This document shows, one piece after another, positions 12,388-35,045 of a stretch of DNA of 35,045 bases. Each line of letters opens with the position of its first letter. Position 1 is the first letter of the stretch. Origin of the DNA: Alphaproteobacteria bacterium (GTDB taxonomy: Bacteria; Pseudomonadota; Alphaproteobacteria; Micavibrionales; Micavibrionaceae). The notes under the pieces are model-generated. The model saw nothing but the letters and a program-made list of their open reading frames with translations. It searched no databases and had not been told where the DNA came from. The position numbers and the translations under genes are program-made. The stretch is from positions 1 to 35,045 of the forward strand of contig JAIOYC010000006.1 in assembly GCA_021741325.1 (NCBI GenBank), in the 5' to 3' direction.

Positions 12388-12948
12388 ATGAAAACGCCGG
12401 TTCTGGAAACCGAACGACTTATCCTGCGCCCGGTAACACTTGCAGACGCACCTTCCATCCAGAAGCACTTCAACCAATGGGAAATCATCAAGCATCTCTC
12501 CACGCTTGTTCCCTGGCCCTATCCAGAGGATGGCGCGGAGCAGTTTCTTTTCGGCAATGCTTTGCCCCGCATGGAAAAGGGGGAAGCCCTGGTTTGGGCC
12601 ATTATTTCCAAAACCGGGCCGGATGAAGCTATCGGACTTATAGATTTCCGGCTTCTGGAAGGAAAGACTGGAGACCGCGGATTCTGGCTCACCTTGGCTT
12701 TTCAGGGACGAGGCCTGATGACAGAAGCGATCACGGCCACGCAGGATTTTATATTTTTTACTGCGGGGATTAAAAAATTTACCGTCAAAAATGCCAAAAC
12801 CAATATCGCCTCCCGGAGGGTGAAGGAAAAGACAGGCGCACATTTTGTCGGTATGGAGAAACTGGAACATAATTCAGGTGAAACTGATTCCGAGAGTTGG
12901 GAAGTGACGAAAGAGGGCTGGGAAGCCATCAGAAAGGCAAATACCTGA
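12388..12948 (+). CDS. GNAT acetyltransferase of the RimJ/RimL type
   Basis: The 186-residue protein has the layout of RimJ/RimL-like GNAT enzymes, which transfer acetyl from acetyl-CoA to protein N-termini or small amines. It begins with the typical ETERLILRPVTLADA. A central beta strand pair (GLIDFRLLEGKTGDRGFWL) is followed by the acetyl-CoA loop, here FQGRGLMTEA, which fits the Q/RxxGxG/A pattern. Toward the end, NIASRRVKEKTGAHFVG matches the usual N.aS..v.eK.GF segment. It starts 4 bases after the thiolase stop and ends 2 bases before the hydrolase, so the three are probably co-transcribed. The substrate is unknown. Confidence 0.88.
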   Translation: MKTPVLETERLILRPVTLADAPSIQKHFNQWEIIKHLSTLVPWPYPEDGAEQFLFGNALPRMEKGEALVWAIISKTGPDEAIGLIDFRLLEGKTGDRGFWLTLAFQGRGLMTEAITATQDFIFFTAGIKKFTVKNAKTNIASRRVKEKTGAHFVGMEKLEHNSGETDSESWEVTKEGWEAIRKANT

Positions 12949-26607: not shown

Positions 26608-27786
26608 TTATTGGCGGGTGATCCCCACCATGCCCCATTCCAAGGGTTCCCCGGCCTTCAGATCGCGGGTAGCAGGCTTGCCCTCTATAACATCCGCATA
26701 TCTTATATGGAGCCCACCGCCGGGCCGGATAGAATCGAAATTACCTCTTTCTCCTCCCGAAAAACGCAGGACTTCGCCTTTCTTTATATCTTCCACGACC
26801 CACAGGCTGGGGCGGATGGAGCGGCTGCCTTCCTCCTTCGGCGTGGGATCAAAACGGACTTCTCCGCGCGCGGCAACGGCAAGAGCGGATTCTTCTTCCG
26901 TATAGGAAATTCCTTCTCCACGCTCAAAAGCCCGGATCGCATCCACCATCTGCTTTAGCTCCGCAGGGGTACGACTGAAGGGCCAGTCGAATCCGCCTTC
27001 ATTGTTCTCCATCAGGCCCCGTGCTTTCTCGCGATCCAGCGTCAGATGGACCTCCACGATCTTCGCGCCCAGCTTTACGGCTTCCAGCGGCGTGATGTGC
27101 GCAAAAGGCTTACGGCAGTTTTCAATTTGCGAATCCGCAAAAATAATGTGATCGGAAAGCCCCACCACGCAGCCGAACAGCTCTTCCATGACCGGAATGG
27201 TTCTCAGGTTAGCCTCCGCGAATTCCCCCGGATATCCGCTGTTACATTTCAGGATCGCGATGTCCGAAGCGCCTTGAGCACGCAGCGTATCGAAGGCTTC
27301 ACGCAGTTCCATATAGGTCGACATGCCGCTGGAGATGATGACGGGCTTGCGGGTCTTGGCGACTTTTTCAAGAAGCTTCGTATCCACGATCTCGAAGCTG
27401 GCGATTTTATAAACGGGAGCGTTCATCTCTTCCAGAAAATCTACCGCTGTCTCATCAAAGGGTGAGGAAAACAGATGTAGCCCATGGGCATCGGCGGTTT
27501 TTTGAAGCTCGCCGTGCCACTCCCAAGGCGTGGAGGCTTTTTTATAAAGCCCGTGCAGATCAAGATTTTCCCAGATCGTCCCCTTGGGTTTTGTTTTAAA
27601 ATCCCGGGTAATAGTGTCAGCGGTGTAGGTCTGGATCTTCACCGCGTCGCATCCGGCTTTCGCGGCGGCTTCGATGATCCCCCTAGCCTCCTCCAGATTG
27701 CCCTCATGATTGCAGGAAATTTCCGCGATGATATAGCAGGGATGGCCCGCCCCGACACTGCGATTCCCGATTTTAAAATTTCTCAT
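26608..27786 (-). CDS. pseI: Pseudaminic acid synthase (NeuB family)
   Basis: PseI condenses the 6-deoxy-altrose intermediate with phosphoenolpyruvate to give the nine-carbon pseudaminic acid. The 392-residue protein has the NeuB barrel, AEISCNHEG at 21-29 and AVKIQTYTADTIT, and the PseI hallmark ASTPWEWH (84-91), followed by SSPFDETAVDFLEE. The likely metal ligands are His213 in LSDH and His247 in VEVHLTLD. A C-terminal SAF domain (about 322-390) resembles antifreeze proteins. An insertion of about 13-15 residues (near 215-230) lies between LSDH and the next barrel strand compared with the usual form. Its ATG overlaps the stop of the formyltransferase by four bases. I favour PseI over NeuB or LegI on the TPWEWH motif. 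Confidence 0.92.
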   Translation of the reverse strand: MRNFKIGNRSVGAGHPCYIIAEISCNHEGNLEEARGIIEAAAKAGCDAVKIQTYTADTITRDFKTKPKGTIWENLDLHGLYKKASTPWEWHGELQKTADAHGLHLFSSPFDETAVDFLEEMNAPVYKIASFEIVDTKLLEKVAKTRKPVIISSGMSTYMELREAFDTLRAQGASDIAILKCNSGYPGEFAEANLRTIPVMEELFGCVVGLSDHIIFADSQIENCRKPFAHITPLEAVKLGAKIVEVHLTLDREKARGLMENNEGGFDWPFSRTPAELKQMVDAIRAFERGEGISYTEEESALAVAARGEVRFDPTPKEEGSRSIRPSLWVVEDIKKGEVLRFSGGERGNFDSIRPGGGLHIRYADVIEGKPATRDLKAGEPLEWGMVGITRQ

Positions 27787-28451
27787 AAATCTCTCTCATC
27801 AGGCTCAATCCGTATTTTATAACGCCGCCCTTTATAGTCGAAAAAAGCCGGATAATGTTCATTGTCCACCACACGCAACAAATCAAATTGCGCAGCGATC
27901 GTTTGCTCTGGGTCGAGGCGACTGTCTTTGGGGGTGCGGCGTGGATAAACGCTCGCTTCCCCGGATTGAGCCTTACCCTCTGGCGGCACGGGTTCGGACA
28001 GATAACGGCAGCAAAGATCCACGATATGACGCCCCAGAAGATCGCGAATTTCTTCCACCAGTTCCGTGCCGCTCAGATCGATCCATTCCTTGTAAATGAT
28101 AGGCCCCGTATCAACCTCCTCCGCGGCTTCGATGAGGCAAAGCGGAATACGGTTCTTTCCCTCCAGAATGGCATAGGTCCAGGGAGAAAATCCCCGCCCG
28201 TGGGGCAAGTCGCTCGCATGGGCGACAAGATTTTTCTGATTCCGGGCTAAAACGGCGGGCGGGGTAATTTTCACGCAGCCCAAATAAAAAGCCACCGCTC
28301 CCTCTTCAACCTCGTCATGGGTCCGGCATAGTTTGGCTATGTTCCCTTGGGCCATGCTCCATGAAATAAGAGCCCGCGCATAAGGCAGGACCCAGCTTTC
28401 ATTATCCACCACCACGGAAACGCGGTGCGGTTTTTTCCCTCCTTCAGCCAT
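27783..28451 (-). CDS. Sugar N-formyltransferase-like protein
   Basis: This 222-residue protein resembles the catalytic domain of 10-formyltetrahydrofolate-dependent formyltransferases. The core is NLVAHASDLPHGRGFSPWTY at 74-93, followed by EAAEEVDTGPIIYKEWIDL. His78 and Asp114 are 36 residues apart, as are the catalytic His110 and Asp146 of E. coli Fmt; the catalytic Asn is shifted (Asn74, with Val at the -2 position). It is too short for Met-tRNA formyltransferase and lacks its C-terminal domain. It lies between pseG and pseI, where the N-acetyltransferase PseH would be expected, and overlaps both neighbours (8 and 4 bases). I infer that it formylates the 4-amino group of the altrose precursor, or an amino group of the final sugar. 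The exact acceptor is unproved. Confidence 0.8.
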   Translation of the reverse strand: MAEGGKKPHRVSVVVDNESWVLPYARALISWSMAQGNIAKLCRTHDEVEEGAVAFYLGCVKITPPAVLARNQKNLVAHASDLPHGRGFSPWTYAILEGKNRIPLCLIEAAEEVDTGPIIYKEWIDLSGTELVEEIRDLLGRHIVDLCCRYLSEPVPPEGKAQSGEASVYPRRTPKDSRLDPEQTIAAQFDLLRVVDNEHYPAFFDYKGRRYKIRIEPDERDL

Positions 28452-29448
28452 GACACAGAACCTTTATCACACGCTCTGTTCCCAGACCGTCGCATACGCG
28501 CGCGGCGGCCGCGCTCATCGCCTTGAGGGCAAAACCGTTATTTTTGAGACTTAAAATCGCCTGCCGGATATTGTCTTTTGAAACGTCTTCCATGGGCCCA
28601 AGATAATCCACGGCGCCGGCTTTTGAAAGTTCCCGCGCGATCAGGGCCTGATTGTCGGCGATTTCAATCACAAGCGCGGGCAAGCCCAGACAACAGCGCT
28701 CCCAGCTGGCCGTCCCGCCCGCGCCAATTGCCAGATCGGCCTGTTTCATCAAGGTTTCCATGTCCGCGATATCGGTATGAATTGTGATGTCGTGGCGGGA
28801 TTTTTCCGCCATCTGACGAACCCGCGATAAATTTTCTGCGCCGCTTCCCAAAACCACATCCACGGACAGAAAAAAAGGAAGCCCGTTCAGCGCTTCGAGC
28901 ACGAAAGATGTTCCATCACGGGCATCGAGGCTGCTGATAAAGACCAGAACGCGCTCTAATCTTCCATCCCGACGGCGCAGAGAATCCGCACGCCGTTCTG
29001 CAAAGCCGGGGCGCAGCAGGGCGTAATCCGCTCCCACCAGTACCGTACAGCCGGGCGGCACAAAGATCTTGTAATCTGCCGCCTGTCGTCCATAAGTCTG
29101 GTCCAGCAGGATATCACACTCATGCGGACGGTCCGCCAGATCATCAATGACCATGATCCGTTTGGCCCATGCACGGGCTTTCTTCTCGTAGGCAGCATCA
29201 AGCCCGTAATGATCCACAACGAGCAAATCCCCGCAATCAGGCGGTGAGTCTGGAGAAAGGATATCGTATTTTTTTTCACGGAGCGCCGGAACGGCTAAGG
29301 TACTCTCGGTCCCCGTTATAAACGCGCAGATCCATCCCCGTGCCGCAAGGGCATCGGCCAGAGTCAGGCACCGCATGACATGCCCGCCTCCAATCTCAGA
29401 AGATGCCTCGCAGCGGAAAAACGCTTTTTTAGAATTTTTACTGTCCAT
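28444..29448 (-). CDS. pseG: UDP-2,4-diacetamido-2,4,6-trideoxy-beta-L-altropyranose hydrolase-like
   Basis: PseG removes UDP from the altrose intermediate just before PseI acts. The 334-residue protein has the GT-B-like fold with the N-terminal signature FRCEASSEIGGGHVMRCLTL (residues 11-30). His23 matches the catalytic His17 of the Campylobacter enzyme; the usual RxD is RCE here. The UDP-site motif GAGGTASWERCCLGLPALVI is followed by ADNQ. It overlaps the methyltransferase upstream by 11 bases and the formyltransferase downstream by 8. If the neighbouring enzyme formylates rather than acetylates, its real substrate would be the 4-formamido analogue. Confidence 0.92.
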   Translation of the reverse strand: MDSKNSKKAFFRCEASSEIGGGHVMRCLTLADALAARGWICAFITGTESTLAVPALREKKYDILSPDSPPDCGDLLVVDHYGLDAAYEKKARAWAKRIMVIDDLADRPHECDILLDQTYGRQAADYKIFVPPGCTVLVGADYALLRPGFAERRADSLRRRDGRLERVLVFISSLDARDGTSFVLEALNGLPFFLSVDVVLGSGAENLSRVRQMAEKSRHDITIHTDIADMETLMKQADLAIGAGGTASWERCCLGLPALVIEIADNQALIARELSKAGAVDYLGPMEDVSKDNIRQAILSLKNNGFALKAMSAAAARVCDGLGTERVIKVLCHG

Positions 29449-30106
29449 ATGGGTTATCTGGCCAGCCTAGAGCAGTATCTTTGTGCAGCACCGAAACCGA
29501 AACCCGGTTGTCCGGTGTTTCATCTGTACAGCCGGGATGAAGTATGACGTGCTTCTCGATCAGCCGGTAAGCCGGATTCCAAGAAAAAAGCGTGCTGTAA
29601 TCCATCTTGTAGCTGTAAAGCCCCTCCGCGTGCGTGTAGGGATTCCGGTAGGCCGGGTCTGCATGAAAATCATAAATTAAAAGCTGTCCGTTCTCCCGTA
29701 AAATACGGTCCGCCTCCGCCGCAATTTTAAACAAATCCGCGCGGTCGCACAGATAAAGACAAAACCCGAATATCACGAGATCGAAACTTTTATCCTCAAA
29801 GGGCAGATCTTCCGCGGTGCCTTGTTGCAGATGAAGGCCCTGCTGCGCCTCCGCAACCGCTTGTGCGGAAGGGTCGAGACCGAAAAATTCTGCCCCCGGC
29901 CAGCGTTCCTTTAAAATACTCAGGCGCCAGCCATTCCCCGCCCCGATTTCAAGAACGCGGGCGGGCGGGTTTTCTGTTTCGTTCAGAACTTGAAGAACCG
30001 GATCGGTCTTGCGTTTATCGGCCAGCCTGTCACCCACAATGCGGTTGCGCGCGTTCCAGCCGTCGCCCTCTCCGTTCAGGAAGATTGTCTTTTGAGATTT
30101 TCCCAT
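29438..30106 (-). CDS. Class I SAM-dependent methyltransferase
   Basis: The 222-residue protein carries the SAM-binding loop ARVLEIGAGNGWRL at about 49-62, with motif II Asp in FGLDPSAQAV. Post-I TAEDLPFEDKSFDLVIFGFC shows the typical acidic residue and aromatic stretch, followed by EADRILRENGQLLIYDF. No N-terminal domain is fused. It lies between the class III aminotransferase (gap 2 bases) and pseG (11-base overlap), so it is part of the operon. O- or N-methylation of the nonulosonate made here is likely, but substrate and position cannot be told. Confidence 0.85.
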   Translation of the reverse strand: MGKSQKTIFLNGEGDGWNARNRIVGDRLADKRKTDPVLQVLNETENPPARVLEIGAGNGWRLSILKERWPGAEFFGLDPSAQAVAEAQQGLHLQQGTAEDLPFEDKSFDLVIFGFCLYLCDRADLFKIAAEADRILRENGQLLIYDFHADPAYRNPYTHAEGLYSYKMDYSTLFSWNPAYRLIEKHVILHPGCTDETPDNRVSVSVLHKDTALGWPDNPYGQ

Positions 30107-30108
30107 AC

Positions 30109-31404
30109 TTATCCCCGCACCTGAAAGACGGGGTAAATAGCCGGAACTTCAAGATTTTTTAACAGTGTCCCAACCTTCAATTCCTGCGAAATCCGACCCA
30201 GCGCACCTTCATAAGCATCGCGCACCTGAGCAATGTCAGCATCATTGTGGGCAAAACAGATATTGTGGCTTCCGGCAATCAAAACGCCTGCGCGCAGCAT
30301 TTCGATCATGAAGCGGGTTTTGATGGCTTCCTTGGGCGCGGTTTTGTGATCCTTGAAATTCAGAACCTTCCAGGGTGCCACGCCGCTCAGGGAGAGAATA
30401 TTTTCAAGGCCATTAGCTGTAATCACATCTTGCGCAGTCTGAAGCATTTTTTCGCCAGTTTTCCACAGGCGCGTGATGACATTCTCGCGTTTCATCTTAT
30501 CAATGACAGCTATCGAGGCCGCCAGTGAGAGAGTTTCTCCGCCGAAGGTGCCAGAATAAAAAACCTTCTCCATGAAGCCCATAATATCCGCCCGGCCCAT
30601 GACCGCAGAAATCGGCATGCCGTTGCCCATGCCCTTGCCGAAGGCCGCCAAATCCGGGGTAGTTCCGCAATGAGCCTGAGCGCCACCGAGATGCACACGA
30701 AAACCGGTGATGACCTCGTCGAAGATCAAAACGATCCCTTCCTCCCGCGTAAGGACCCGCAGGGCCTCGAGGTAACCGGGCGCGGGTTCGTTAGAGGAAA
30801 TGGGCTCCAGAATCAGCGCGGCGATCTGACCTTTATGCTGCGCGACACGGGCTTTCACGGCTTCAAGATCGTTGTAGGGCAGTTTGTGCGTCAGCGCACC
30901 CACGGCAGAGGGTACGCCTAAATTTCGGGCGGTCGCACCGATATACCAGTCCTGCCATCCGTGATAGCCGCAGGCGATGACATGATCTTTCCCGGTGAAA
31001 GCACGGGCGAGGCGAATGGCGGCGGAGGTCGCGTCCGTTCCGTTTTTGCCAAAGCGCACCATTTCCGCGCAGGGTATGATCTCCACCAGCCGTTCGGCCA
31101 ACTCGACTTCCAGGACGGTGGAAAGACTGAAGCTGATCCCCTTCTCCAACTGCGCCTTGATCGCCGCGTCTGTGTCCGGATCGCAATAGCCTAGCGTGAC
31201 GGGCATTAGGGCGCAGATGAGATCGACATATTCATTACCGTCCACATCCCACACACGCCCGCCCTTCCCCCGATCCAGGAACAGGGGCGCAAACGGCACG
31301 GGAAATTGTATCCGACTCTTGCTAAAGGTCTGGGCTGCCAGTGGAATAACACGCTCTGCGCGTTTCAGGATGTCGTTGCTGATTTTATAGCGCTCTTGCG
31401 GCAT
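30109..31404 (-). CDS. Class III PLP aminotransferase (glutamate-1-semialdehyde aminomutase-like)
   Basis: The 431-residue protein has the class III fold. It resembles glutamate-1-semialdehyde aminomutase: VIPLAAQTFSKSRIQFP near the N-terminus, MVRFGKNGTDATSAAIRLAR, and YHGWQDWYIG. FDEVITGFR holds the PLP-contacting Asp229, and AAFGKGMGNGMP the Schiff-base Lys257. It follows Gfo/Idh by 4 bases. Because HemL works in tetrapyrrole synthesis elsewhere, this sugar-operon copy is more likely to aminate a carbonyl on a sugar or nonulosonate. The paired dehydrogenase could make that carbonyl. That pairing is inference from position. Confidence 0.88.
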   Translation of the reverse strand: MPQERYKISNDILKRAERVIPLAAQTFSKSRIQFPVPFAPLFLDRGKGGRVWDVDGNEYVDLICALMPVTLGYCDPDTDAAIKAQLEKGISFSLSTVLEVELAERLVEIIPCAEMVRFGKNGTDATSAAIRLARAFTGKDHVIACGYHGWQDWYIGATARNLGVPSAVGALTHKLPYNDLEAVKARVAQHKGQIAALILEPISSNEPAPGYLEALRVLTREEGIVLIFDEVITGFRVHLGGAQAHCGTTPDLAAFGKGMGNGMPISAVMGRADIMGFMEKVFYSGTFGGETLSLAASIAVIDKMKRENVITRLWKTGEKMLQTAQDVITANGLENILSLSGVAPWKVLNFKDHKTAPKEAIKTRFMIEMLRAGVLIAGSHNICFAHNDADIAQVRDAYEGALGRISQELKVGTLLKNLEVPAIYPVFQVRG

Positions 31405-31408
31405 GATT

Positions 31409-32410
31409 CTATCCTATATCCACCCTTCGTCCCGTTCCAGCCGATTCATGGACGGCCAGCGCGGTTTTTAGTCCCATCAGGGCTTCACGACCATTCAGCA
31501 AGAATGACGGTTTATTTGGGTCTTTCAGAACGGCTATAAAATGCTCCATGAGCTCCACATACATGCAAGAAGCATCCAGGGCGTGATCTTGCAAAAGAGT
31601 TTCCCAGACCGCCGTATCCGCACGGTAGATTTTCACGGTGCATTGTTCCGGAGCTTTTCCTTCGCTATTCCAGACCAGAGTGCCCTTGGAGCCCACGATT
31701 TCGCAACCGCGACGCTTGAATTTCTGAAGATAATCGAGATGAATTTCACTACGGATATTATTTTTATGCTTCATTATAATAGTGGCATAATCCTCGACAT
31801 CAATTTCAAGATCGCTGCATTTATCCGCATCGCACAACACGCTCTCCACGGGCCCAAAGAAATTGCTCAAATAGTCGATCTCGTGAATGGCATCGAGGAT
31901 CACCCCGCCGCCCTGTTTTTTCTGCGCACAGTATAACGTCCGGTAATCCGCACCGGGTCTCATATTGGGAAGGTAATTCCCGTATTGCGAGCGCGCGCAA
32001 TAAATGTCACCGATCCGGTCCAGATTTTCATGCAGGGTTTTAATGGCCGGATGAAAACGCATGTTACAGACCACATGAATGGATTTTTTATTTTTTTCCG
32101 CGTGCTGCAAAAAATTTTCTACGCCTTCGGTCGAATTCGAAATCGGCTTTTCGATCAGCACATGTGCGCCCGCATCCACGGCCCTGCACGCCAGAGCAAT
32201 ATGGGTATGATGCGGTGTGGCAATTATCACGCCGTCGGGCGCCCAGTTTAAGGCTTCTTCAAGCCTATTGAAACTGGAAGCTCCACTCTCATGCGCGGCC
32301 TGTGCGGACAATTGAATATTTTCATCAAATATACCGCCCTGCGCATGGCTCAAAGCGTTTGCAATATGCCGTCGTCCGATGGACCCTGCGCCGAGAACAA
32401 GGATTTTCAT
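31409..32410 (-). CDS. Gfo/Idh/MocA-family oxidoreductase
   Basis: This 333-residue NAD(P)-dependent sugar dehydrogenase-like protein has the Rossmann motif LVLGAGSIGRRH at 4-15, GVIIATPHHTHIALA, and HVLIEKPIS with the Lys of the EKP triad. A long alpha/beta C-terminal domain includes GGGVILDAIHEIDYL, with the catalytic-site Asp and His spaced in the family's usual DxxxH style. It overlaps the CMP-sugar synthetase by four bases and is followed by the aminotransferase after 4 bases. It may oxidise a hydroxyl on a nonulosonate precursor. The substrate is unknown. Confidence 0.87.
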   Translation of the reverse strand: MKILVLGAGSIGRRHIANALSHAQGGIFDENIQLSAQAAHESGASSFNRLEEALNWAPDGVIIATPHHTHIALACRAVDAGAHVLIEKPISNSTEGVENFLQHAEKNKKSIHVVCNMRFHPAIKTLHENLDRIGDIYCARSQYGNYLPNMRPGADYRTLYCAQKKQGGGVILDAIHEIDYLSNFFGPVESVLCDADKCSDLEIDVEDYATIIMKHKNNIRSEIHLDYLQKFKRRGCEIVGSKGTLVWNSEGKAPEQCTVKIYRADTAVWETLLQDHALDASCMYVELMEHFIAVLKDPNKPSFLLNGREALMGLKTALAVHESAGTGRRVDIG

Positions 32411-33084
32411 GCACTCCCCGCTTGCCGGATGGCAAAGAACCGGGCCAGATCGAGATCCAGCGATTCGTCGATATCCTGCGACCGCTCACGCGGCATAATG
32501 TGTGCGCGCATTCCCGGACCGTAAAAGATTTTGTGGTTTTTAAATGCCGGAACGGAAACGGCGTAGGTGCTGCCATTATCCACGACAAGCGGGTCGATAT
32601 CGGAGGCCCGGCGATTAACCAGATCAGGCCAGAAGGGCTTGATAAAACCGTCCTGTCCAGCTTTGAGCGCCTGATGCGGGGGCATGTCGTAGCGGGTGGC
32701 CGCGATGGAAAAATCGCACCAGCCCGGCTTGATCAGATTCACGACGGCCACGATGTCCTCTGTCGTGCGCAACGGCGCGGTCGCATAGAGCACGCATAAG
32801 ATATCGCAGGAATTCCGATCCAGAAATTCAAGGCAGACCTCTCGCACGCTTGCCTGGTCCGTAGCAAGCGCGGGCGAGCGATCATCAATTTCTGCGCCGT
32901 ATTCAAGCGCGATCTTTCGGATTTCAGGGTCTTCCGTGGAAACCACCACACGCTCAAACAATCCCGTTTCCCGCGCAGCCTGGATAGTCCACGCAATAAT
33001 AGGCTTACCCAAAAAATCGAGGATGTTTTTCCGCGGCAGGCGCTTGGACCCCCCGCGCGCGGGGATCAGGGCTACGCGGCGCAT
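32407..33084 (-). CDS. CMP-nonulosonate (acylneuraminate) cytidylyltransferase
   Basis: This enzyme activates a nonulosonic acid with CTP to its CMP form. The 225-residue protein starts ALIPARGGSKRLPRKNILDF, the family signature, followed by VVSTEDPEI and the acidic metal-site region around DID. It overlaps the divergent NeuB-like gene by 13 bases, so the two are a unit. The segment near residue 165-175 reads DNGSTYAVS. As I recall, PseF proteins carry a DAGQFY-type sequence in that region, so specificity for pseudaminic acid is uncertain and I give no gene symbol. It is either a shared CMP-synthetase for both sugars or specific for the second sugar. Confidence 0.9.
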   Translation of the reverse strand: MRRVALIPARGGSKRLPRKNILDFLGKPIIAWTIQAARETGLFERVVVSTEDPEIRKIALEYGAEIDDRSPALATDQASVREVCLEFLDRNSCDILCVLYATAPLRTTEDIVAVVNLIKPGWCDFSIAATRYDMPPHQALKAGQDGFIKPFWPDLVNRRASDIDPLVVDNGSTYAVSVPAFKNHKIFYGPGMRAHIMPRERSQDIDESLDLDLARFFAIRQAGSA

Positions 33085-34181
33085 GCCTTATCCGCGGGCT
33101 GGGAAAAATCCTGCCATGTCAGGCGGTGGCTTGAAGGAAGATCGGCGGTGAACACCGCATCCATAAGGCCGTCATACATTTCTGGCCCGATTCCAAAACC
33201 GGGACGGCGGAATTCCACCTTTACATCCCGTAGGCGCTGGCCTTTTTTGGCTCCCTCTGCCAGGAAGATGCTGCGGCGGATCGCCATGCGCTTTTCCCGT
33301 TCCGCAGGCTGTAAAATACGGCGCGGCGCGCCCATGGCGGTTTCCACGTCGCGGATAATTTTTACGAAAGACGCCATTTCAGACGGCTCCAGGGACATGA
33401 TATGTTCGACGCTGGGCGTGGTGCGGTCCAGCGTAATGGTTTTCTCAACCAGATTGGCTCCAATCGAAATCGCCGCAATATCCATTTCCCATCCCGGCAC
33501 ATGATCTGAATAGGCCGTCGGATACCCGAACATCTGTTTGAGCGTCAGGATGATCCGCAAATTCACGCTATCCAGTCGCGCGGGATAACCCGTGGGACAT
33601 TGGTGGATGATGATGTTCTCATTGCCCTCGCGCCGGATCACGTCGATAGCGGTTTCAATCTCCCCCAGCGAGGAATTCCCAGTATCGAGCTGCAAGCACA
33701 TCCCGGTTTTGGCCGCCATGCGAATCAGCGGAATATGGTTCACATCCGCCGACGCGATCTTGATGGAATCGCATTTCAATTCTTCCAGAAGACGGATTTC
33801 ATCCTCAAACCCGATCGTGGCGAAAAAGGCCAAACCCAAAGAATCGCTGTATTTCTTAAGATCACGCCATTCATCCTTTGAAAGCGCGCGGCGGGCCAGA
33901 ATGTCGTAGAGAGGCTCACTCACAGTTTCGGTCTTGCCCGTCTCGCGGTCCACGAGAATGTCGTAGGTAAAGAGCTGTTTCTTGTCCGCAACCAGCCGAT
34001 CGGGATCGATGATCTGGAATTTCACCGCGTCCGCGCCAGCCTCGGCGGCCAGATGGACAAGCTTTTTGGCGCTGTCCAAACCGTCATGGGTCGGTCCGGC
34101 CTCATAGGTGATAAAGCACGGATGTCCATCGCCAATCACACGCGCTCCGAAAGTCACCGTTTTTTGTTCCGTCTGATGCAT
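33072..34181 (-). CDS. Second, divergent NeuB-family synthase
   Basis: The 369-residue protein has the sialic acid synthase layout: PEP-condensing barrel and a C-terminal SAF domain (about 300-350). Barrel motifs are TYEAGPTHDG at 25-34, AGADAVKFQIIDPDRL, DSIKIASADVNH, LDTGNSSLGEI and HQCPTGYP. His227 in YSDHVPG matches one metal ligand of NeuB. The second, in the usual EKHFTLD, is Thr248 here (EKTITLD). It lacks the TPWEWH motif of PseI. It overlaps the CMP-synthetase by 13 bases and shares a base with the pseC stop. It probably condenses phosphoenolpyruvate with a different hexosamine than PseI, or has changed metal chemistry. Product is unknown. Confidence 0.87.
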   Translation of the reverse strand: MHQTEQKTVTFGARVIGDGHPCFITYEAGPTHDGLDSAKKLVHLAAEAGADAVKFQIIDPDRLVADKKQLFTYDILVDRETGKTETVSEPLYDILARRALSKDEWRDLKKYSDSLGLAFFATIGFEDEIRLLEELKCDSIKIASADVNHIPLIRMAAKTGMCLQLDTGNSSLGEIETAIDVIRREGNENIIIHQCPTGYPARLDSVNLRIILTLKQMFGYPTAYSDHVPGWEMDIAAISIGANLVEKTITLDRTTPSVEHIMSLEPSEMASFVKIIRDVETAMGAPRRILQPAEREKRMAIRRSIFLAEGAKKGQRLRDVKVEFRRPGFGIGPEMYDGLMDAVFTADLPSSHRLTWQDFSQPADKACAA

Positions 34182-35045
34182 CAGATCCTCAAAATCGTTT
34201 TTAATTCTTCAACCACATAGGCCGCGTTTTCATCGCTCATCGACGGATATAACGGCAGGGACAGTGTGCGGGCATAATAAGCCTCTGCTCCGGGGAGCGC
34301 AATGTCCCCATAACGTTTCTTGTAATAGGGTTGCTGATGCACAGGAATGTAGTGAACCTGCGTGCCGATGCCCTTGTCCTTCAGGGCGCTCATCAGCGCC
34401 GCGCGGCCCATCCCGGCCTTTTCAAAGTCAATTTGCACTGCATAGAGGTGCCAGGCAGGGTCGGAATACCCATTGCGCGCGGGAATATTGACCAGAGAAG
34501 CGAGGGGCTCCAAAAAGCCGTCATAAAGATCCGCCAGCGCCCGGCGGCGCGCGACAAAGGCCGGAAGCTTTTTAAGCTGCGAAACACCCAGGGCGCACTG
34601 GATATCCGTCATGCGGTGATTGAATCCCAGATCCGGCATTTCATACATCCACGGGCCCTTATCAGGTGTAAAGATCATACCGTGGTGGCGCAAGCGCTTC
34701 ATGAGCGCCGCTTTTTCCGGGTCATTCGTGGTCACCGCGCCGCCCTCGCCCGTGGCGATGGTTTTTACCGGATGAAAGGAAAAGGTCGAGAGATCTTCAT
34801 AAAAGCCTGCACCGACAGGTTTTCCGTTCACGCTCCCCCCGATCGCGTGGCATGAATCCGCTACAACGGAAAGCCCGTGCCGGTCGGCGACCTCCCGAAG
34901 GCCCCTCAGATCCACACCCAATCCTTTCAGATGCACGGGGAAAACCGCGCGCGGTTTTAAGCCGCCACAGCGGGATAGGGCTTCTTCCAGATGTTCCGGT
35001 CCCATAAGCCCCGTGACCGGATCGACATCCGAAAACACAACTTCC
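34181..35045 (-). CDS. pseC: DegT/DnrJ/EryC1-type sugar aminotransferase, PseC-like (N-terminus outside window)
   Basis: The protein adds an amino group to C4 of the UDP-4-keto sugar made by PseB, using PLP and glutamate. The visible part has ADSCHAIGG, the Schiff-base Lys in STFSFHPVKTIATGEGGAV, YEMPDLGFNHRMTDIQCALG, and the C-terminal HYIPVHQQPYYKKRYG. A start inside the window (GTG at 35038) would cut away the N-terminal part of the fold, and the frame is open to the last base, so the gene is 5'-truncated by the window. Pseudaminic-type function is judged from these motifs and from pseG and pseI downstream. A LegC-like specificity cannot be fully excluded. Confidence 0.87.
   Translation of the reverse strand, partial: EVVFSDVDPVTGLMGPEHLEEALSRCGGLKPRAVFPVHLKGLGVDLRGLREVADRHGLSVVADSCHAIGGSVNGKPVGAGFYEDLSTFSFHPVKTIATGEGGAVTTNDPEKAALMKRLRHHGMIFTPDKGPWMYEMPDLGFNHRMTDIQCALGVSQLKKLPAFVARRRALADLYDGFLEPLASLVNIPARNGYSDPAWHLYAVQIDFEKAGMGRAALMSALKDKGIGTQVHYIPVHQQPYYKKRYGDIALPGAEAYYARTLSLPLYPSMSDENAAYVVEELKTILRI

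Follow-up and report, generated by a model that had tools for sequence, protein, structure and literature searches.

The window (35,045 nucleotides, the whole stretch of DNA analysed) is a complete contig (C111) of a genome of 1.69 Mb in 116 contigs, which is 84.75% complete. Its minus strand carries a pseudaminic acid (pse) operon that reads, from the contig end inward, truncated pseC, a second NeuB-family synthase, pseF, a Gfo/Idh/MocA oxidoreductase, a class-III aminotransferase, a methyltransferase, pseG, a formyltransferase and pseI. Between adjoining genes there are either overlaps of at most 13 bp or gaps of 2–4 bp, as in one transcription unit. As the window is a whole contig ending inside pseC, the DNA just upstream sits on another contig. 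The features of the operon are as follows.

34181..35044, minus strand: pseC aminotransferase, cut by the contig end (TIGR03588, 340.8 bits, cut-off 424; profile positions 93–380 of 380)
33072..34181, minus strand: second NeuB-family synthase, by cut-off neither PseI nor NeuB, with Thr for the usual His (VEKTIT)
32407..33084, minus strand: pseF-like CMP-pseudaminic acid cytidylyltransferase (TIGR03584, 181 bits, under the cut-off of 205.7)
31409..32410, minus strand: Gfo/Idh/MocA oxidoreductase (Pfam)
30109..31404, minus strand: class-III aminotransferase, glutamate-1-semialdehyde aminomutase-like group (NF004856, 386 bits, under the cut-off of 486)
29438..30106, minus strand: SAM-dependent methyltransferase (Methyltransf_11)
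28444..29448, minus strand: pseG, UDP-sugar hydrolase (TIGR03590, 259 bits, cut-off 153.55)
27783..28451, minus strand: clade A formyltransferase, 222 aa, in the PseH slot (ORF; PF00551, 31.3 bits; tree; fold match to 1zgh)
28218..28226, minus strand: codons of Val76-x-His78, with Val at the canonical catalytic Asn of N-x-H (ungapped alignment to WbkC; clade A alignment)
28110..28112, minus strand: codon of Asp114, the catalytic Asp position (invariant in the clade A alignment; residue checked)
26608..27786, minus strand: pseI, pseudaminic acid synthase with SAF domain, 392 aa (TIGR03586, 350 bits, cut-off 340.25)

The pseB gene lies apart from the other pathway genes, alone on contig C13 (6151–7182; locus L006), between a fabZ-like and an rluD-like gene. 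A second NeuB-family synthase beside a true PseI is found not only in the window but also in loci L017, L018, L056, L065 and L068; its VEKTIT motif puts Thr at the position of the His of EKHFT in PseI and NeuB, a metal ligand in NeuB, and its gene is divided between two ORFs in L056. The class-III aminotransferase also recurs in pse loci (the window, region 30109–32410; L012, L055, L059, L078, L084, L097 and L145), partnered by an aldo-keto reductase in L012 and by a Gfo/Idh enzyme in the window and in G006, a genome related to that of the window. This enzyme might introduce a third amino group, for instance at C8.

The ORF at 27783..28451 begins with ATG. The initial annotation had described it as overlapping both of its neighbours, and overlaps of 8 bp with pseG on the 5′ side and 4 bp with pseI on the 3′ side were indeed found. 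The encoded protein exceeds the gathering score of Pfam Formyl_trans_N (26.1 bits), which some members of its clade (clade A, see below) slightly miss, and no NCBIfam equivalog fits it. The housekeeping methionyl-tRNA formyltransferase (TIGR00460/fmt) was ruled out on score (38.9 bits against a cut-off of 201.5) and on operon context. An AlphaFold model of the enzyme, predicted from the window and L012 sequences only and hence from a shallow alignment of three rows, has a pLDDT of 74. A fold search with this model returned 1zgh, a formyltransferase, as the best PDB match (E 3.4e-14), followed by many other formyltransferases.

Across a nine-sequence alignment of clade A, residues H78 and D114, the catalytic His and Asp of Formyl_trans_N, are invariant, as is an S-x-L-P-x-G-x-G loop. 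The catalytic Asn is absent: V76, which aligns with the Asn of WbkC, is likewise invariant in this alignment, and the second clade of such enzymes (clade B, see below) has Val or Cys at the same position. The missing Asn offers a chance to test the active-site requirements of formyltransferases.

PseH is the acetyltransferase of pseudaminic acid, a sialic-acid-like surface sugar, and is usually kept where the window formyltransferase sits. The initial annotation had noted the lack of a PseH-like GNAT in the operon and had called for a genome-wide search for pseH. Our results agree with the former; the GNAT at 12388–12948 of the window, between a thiolase and a lysophospholipase, is RimL-like and gives no PseH match at E ≤ 0.01. 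In the search itself, no PseH match over the TIGR03585 cut-off was found in the window or in the 84.75% complete genome, the best score being 13 bits. The GNAT at 12388–12948 is the strongest of five GNAT-domain (PF13302) places in this genome; among other candidates for PseH, the GNAT on contig C25 was rejected as RimI-like and adjoining hisH, and that of genome G364 as SpeG-like by sequence. No PIG-L deacetylase was detected in the window's genome, again at 84.75% completeness, or in G006. Because the window assembly is incomplete, its relatives weigh more for the absence of PseH. Specifically, PseH over the cut-off occurs in none of eight clade A genomes, seven of which are 99–100% complete, as compared with 5 of the 16 other genomes in the same search.

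To place the gene among its counterparts, a PseG search was run over 397 genomes of the phylum, and 60 of the loci it returned were taken together with the window and annotated with profiles built for this analysis (61 loci); a single-sequence scan of genome contigs returned two loci only. The formyltransferases of pse loci form two clades, A and B (tree support 1.0), and the window gene belongs to clade A. A PseH-like GNAT is present in 0 of 6 loci with clade A, as compared with 37 of the 55 other loci (Fisher p=0.0024), and the exclusivity is also seen among loci with both pseC and pseI (p=0.0009). In all six sampled loci the clade A gene lies directly behind pseG. These loci span five families and at least two classes, in a modest sample whose related genomes are not fully independent. 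A profile search placed full-score clade A genes (>297 bits) in exactly six of the 397 genomes, all within the sampled PseG loci. PIG-L, by comparison, tracks clade B (6/6 versus 2/55 loci, p=5e-7) and not clade A (2/6 versus 6/55 loci, p=0.17), and every clade B locus also carries either a GNAT or a clade A gene. With its place in the tree and a genome in which PIG-L was not detected, the window gene falls outside clade B by both partner and phylogeny.

Within one genus, genomes G360 and G686 carry clade A and genome G669 carries PseH in the same slot. From pseB into pseG, the operon DNA is 90.4% (G360) and 93.1% (G686) identical to that of G669; 0.8–0.9 kb is then unalignable, and the pseI DNA beyond it is 83–85% identical, with the breakpoints of the swap inside pseG and pseI. 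At the protein level, G360 and G669 are 98.5% identical in PseB, 96% in PseC, 94% in PseF, 76% in PseG and 83% in PseI. Genus-wide, clade A is present in 2 of 10 genomes and PseH over the cut-off in 1 of 10, never together. No other single result speaks as strongly as this swap for the clade A enzyme and PseH having one and the same task, on the same amine.

We propose, with a probability of roughly three in four, that the window gene encodes a formyl-THF-dependent N-formyltransferase that replaces PseH and that its product would be 7-N-formyl pseudaminic acid. As a reading of sequence, formylation is well supported by gene order, family, fold, PseH exclusivity, the cassette swap and the lack of detectable PseH or PIG-L. 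In the predicted pathway, PseB and PseC would supply UDP-4-amino-4,6-dideoxy-beta-L-AltNAc, and the window enzyme, with the formyl donor and substrate that we infer for it, would formylate the C4 amine of UDP-4-amino-4,6-dideoxy-AltNAc. PseG would then take off UDP, PseI would condense the formylated sugar with PEP, and PseF would activate the product. Since the C4 nitrogen ends up as N7 in the nonulosonic acid, the core product would be 5-N-acetyl-7-N-formyl pseudaminic acid (Pse5Ac7Fo), which other operon enzymes would possibly modify further. In particular, given the second synthase, aminotransferase, oxidoreductase and methyltransferase in the operon, the final sugar may differ from plain Pse5Ac7Fo. 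The N-formyl pseudaminic acid that the initial annotation predicted from PseH replacement is supported by operon slot, exclusivity with PseH, the swap and the undetected PseH and PIG-L, with the qualification that the product may exceed plain Pse5Ac7Fo. Pseudaminic acyl groups shape surface antigens and flagellin glycans.

Several observations count against PseH replacement, namely Val in place of the catalytic Asn, the combination of a GNAT with clade A in L012, the PIG-L of L018, the GNAT of G006 and the incompleteness of the genome. In L012, from an Alteromonadaceae MAG, clade A and clade B genes occur together with PIG-L, a class-III aminotransferase and a GNAT, and this GNAT may serve the extra amine. 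L018, whose nonulosonate context is different, has PIG-L next to clade A and no clade B. G006 has, in an acetamidino/capsule island some 13 kb away from its formyltransferase, a GNAT that scores 28.6 bits against PseH, and the same region contains PseG, an AT3-like aminotransferase, a Gfo/Idh enzyme and PseF. One rival reading is formylation of an extra amine, for example at C8, made by the class-III aminotransferase and the Gfo/Idh enzyme, the C4 amine being otherwise acylated or free. The class-III aminotransferase is present in the window operon and in the G006 and L012 regions, but the loci of G360, G364, G519, G502 and G411 have clade A without it, L055, L059 and L097 have it with a GNAT and without a formyltransferase, and the PseH step would be left without an enzyme; we consider this explanation unlikely. 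It is quite improbable that the ~15% of the genome absent from the assembly holds a pseH, with the formyltransferase making a further modification. The contig end inside pseC in an incomplete assembly and the joint presence of GNAT and clade A in L012 would fit such a gene, but the PseH slot next to pseG is occupied, and PseH over the cut-off is absent from all seven near-complete genomes with clade A.

Because the canonical Asn is gone, with Val76 fixed throughout clade A and Val or Cys in clade B, formyl transfer could have been lost, or another one-carbon or acyl group could be transferred. We see only a slim chance of this, as His78, Asp114 and the S-x-L-P-x-G-x-G loop are invariant, and the gene is intact, is kept in distant families and replaces PseH in a near-identical operon. 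Mutational work on GAR transformylase is also said to have found the Asn not strictly essential. Finally, the enzyme might act with a deacetylase to exchange the other N-acetyl group (N2 of AltNAc or N5 of the nonulosonic acid), as proposed for clade B. This would be in line with L018 and with the 5-N-formyl legionaminic acid of Halorubrum (PMC6137143), but it is very improbable for an enzyme whose clade PIG-L does not track and for which no PIG-L was detected in the window genome or in G006.

If it replaces PseH (TIGR03585), as we favour, the window enzyme would share with it the operon slot and the predicted substrate amine, but PseH has an unrelated GNAT fold and acetyl-CoA as donor. The precedent in Anoxybacillus that the initial annotation mentioned would be PseJ, an enzyme of Anoxybacillus kamchatkensis that is active on the PseC product. 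It fits the PDB structures 6ci2, 6ci4, 6ci5 and 6edk, which are named 'formyltransferase PseJ', but the window enzyme is not a close relative of PseJ. The two belong to the same superfamily, are similar in size and are both predicted to N-formylate the PseC product in a pathway that lacks PseH. However, PseJ scores only 28.8 bits with the clade A profile, less than 1zgh, ArnA, Fmt and WbkC do, and is absent at E ≤ 10 from a phmmer search with the window sequence, as a separate lineage; by profile scores, the window clade is nearer to 1zgh and ArnA. The solved structure closest to the window enzyme by both sequence and fold is 1zgh, a 'methionyl-tRNA formyltransferase' of Clostridium thermocellum, which shares the H-x-x-D-L-P-x-G-R-G loop and likewise lacks the Asn. 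It differs in that it groups with clade B, whose genes accompany PIG-L deacetylases in pse loci, and is probably misnamed, being most like the clade B sugar-locus enzymes. ArnA, VioF and WbkC have the same fold and reaction type, formylating nucleotide-linked amino sugars, but they act on other nucleotide sugars and show weaker similarity, and WbkC keeps the canonical Asn.

The predicted product is already known chemically, as Pse5NAc7NFm in P. aeruginosa O7 (PMC12795346) and a 7-formamido sugar in Pseudoalteromonas distincta KMM 638 (PMC3210612); in the literature searched, no gene was found for 7-N-formyl pseudaminic acid in P. aeruginosa O7 or Pseudoalteromonas distincta. A 2016 paper (PMC5109656) described flagellin islands of Geobacillus that carry pse genes and in every case lack PseH; some contain formyltransferases, for which it made no assignment.

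On a simple reading of the loci, clade A would take over the step of PseH, whereas clade B and PIG-L together would exchange the acyl group on the other nitrogen. The pairing of clade B with PIG-L suggests deacetylation followed by re-formylation of that nitrogen. More broadly, and with the case evenly balanced, the two Asn-less lineages may constitute a modular N-acyl code in pse operons, in which clade A, PseJ-like in function and recruited independently of PseJ, swaps for PseH (7-N-formyl), clade B with PIG-L gives 5-N-formyl, and both together give di-formyl nonulosonic acids. Operon sequence could then predict the N-acyl pattern, with clade A marking N7-formyl and clade B plus PIG-L marking the other nitrogen.

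Clade B formyltransferases (1zgh-like) were seen in L012, L019, L020, L022, L067, L070, L071, L073, L078, L102 and L153, always in a pse locus with PIG-L. A divergent formyltransferase accompanies PIG-L and WbqC in L021 (Mariluticola). Searches of plasmid and phage records returned only distant, clade B or unrelated formyltransferases. Among viral contigs (IMG/VR), L151, L152, L154 and L155 are phage-like contigs that carry clade A relatives without a pse operon, so the fold is not restricted to a pse substrate; in L152, genes of both clades, one of each, lie in tandem among phage genes. In a further viral contig, L153, a full pse operon that includes clade A, clade B and PIG-L genes adjoins phage-like genes. 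Several loci without a GNAT or clade A carry other genes near pseG and pseI, namely ATP-grasp and HAD genes in L082 (Pfam) and, by resemblance only, L086, and WbqC in L108 (Pfam) and, by resemblance only, L111. These are perhaps other N-acyl systems.
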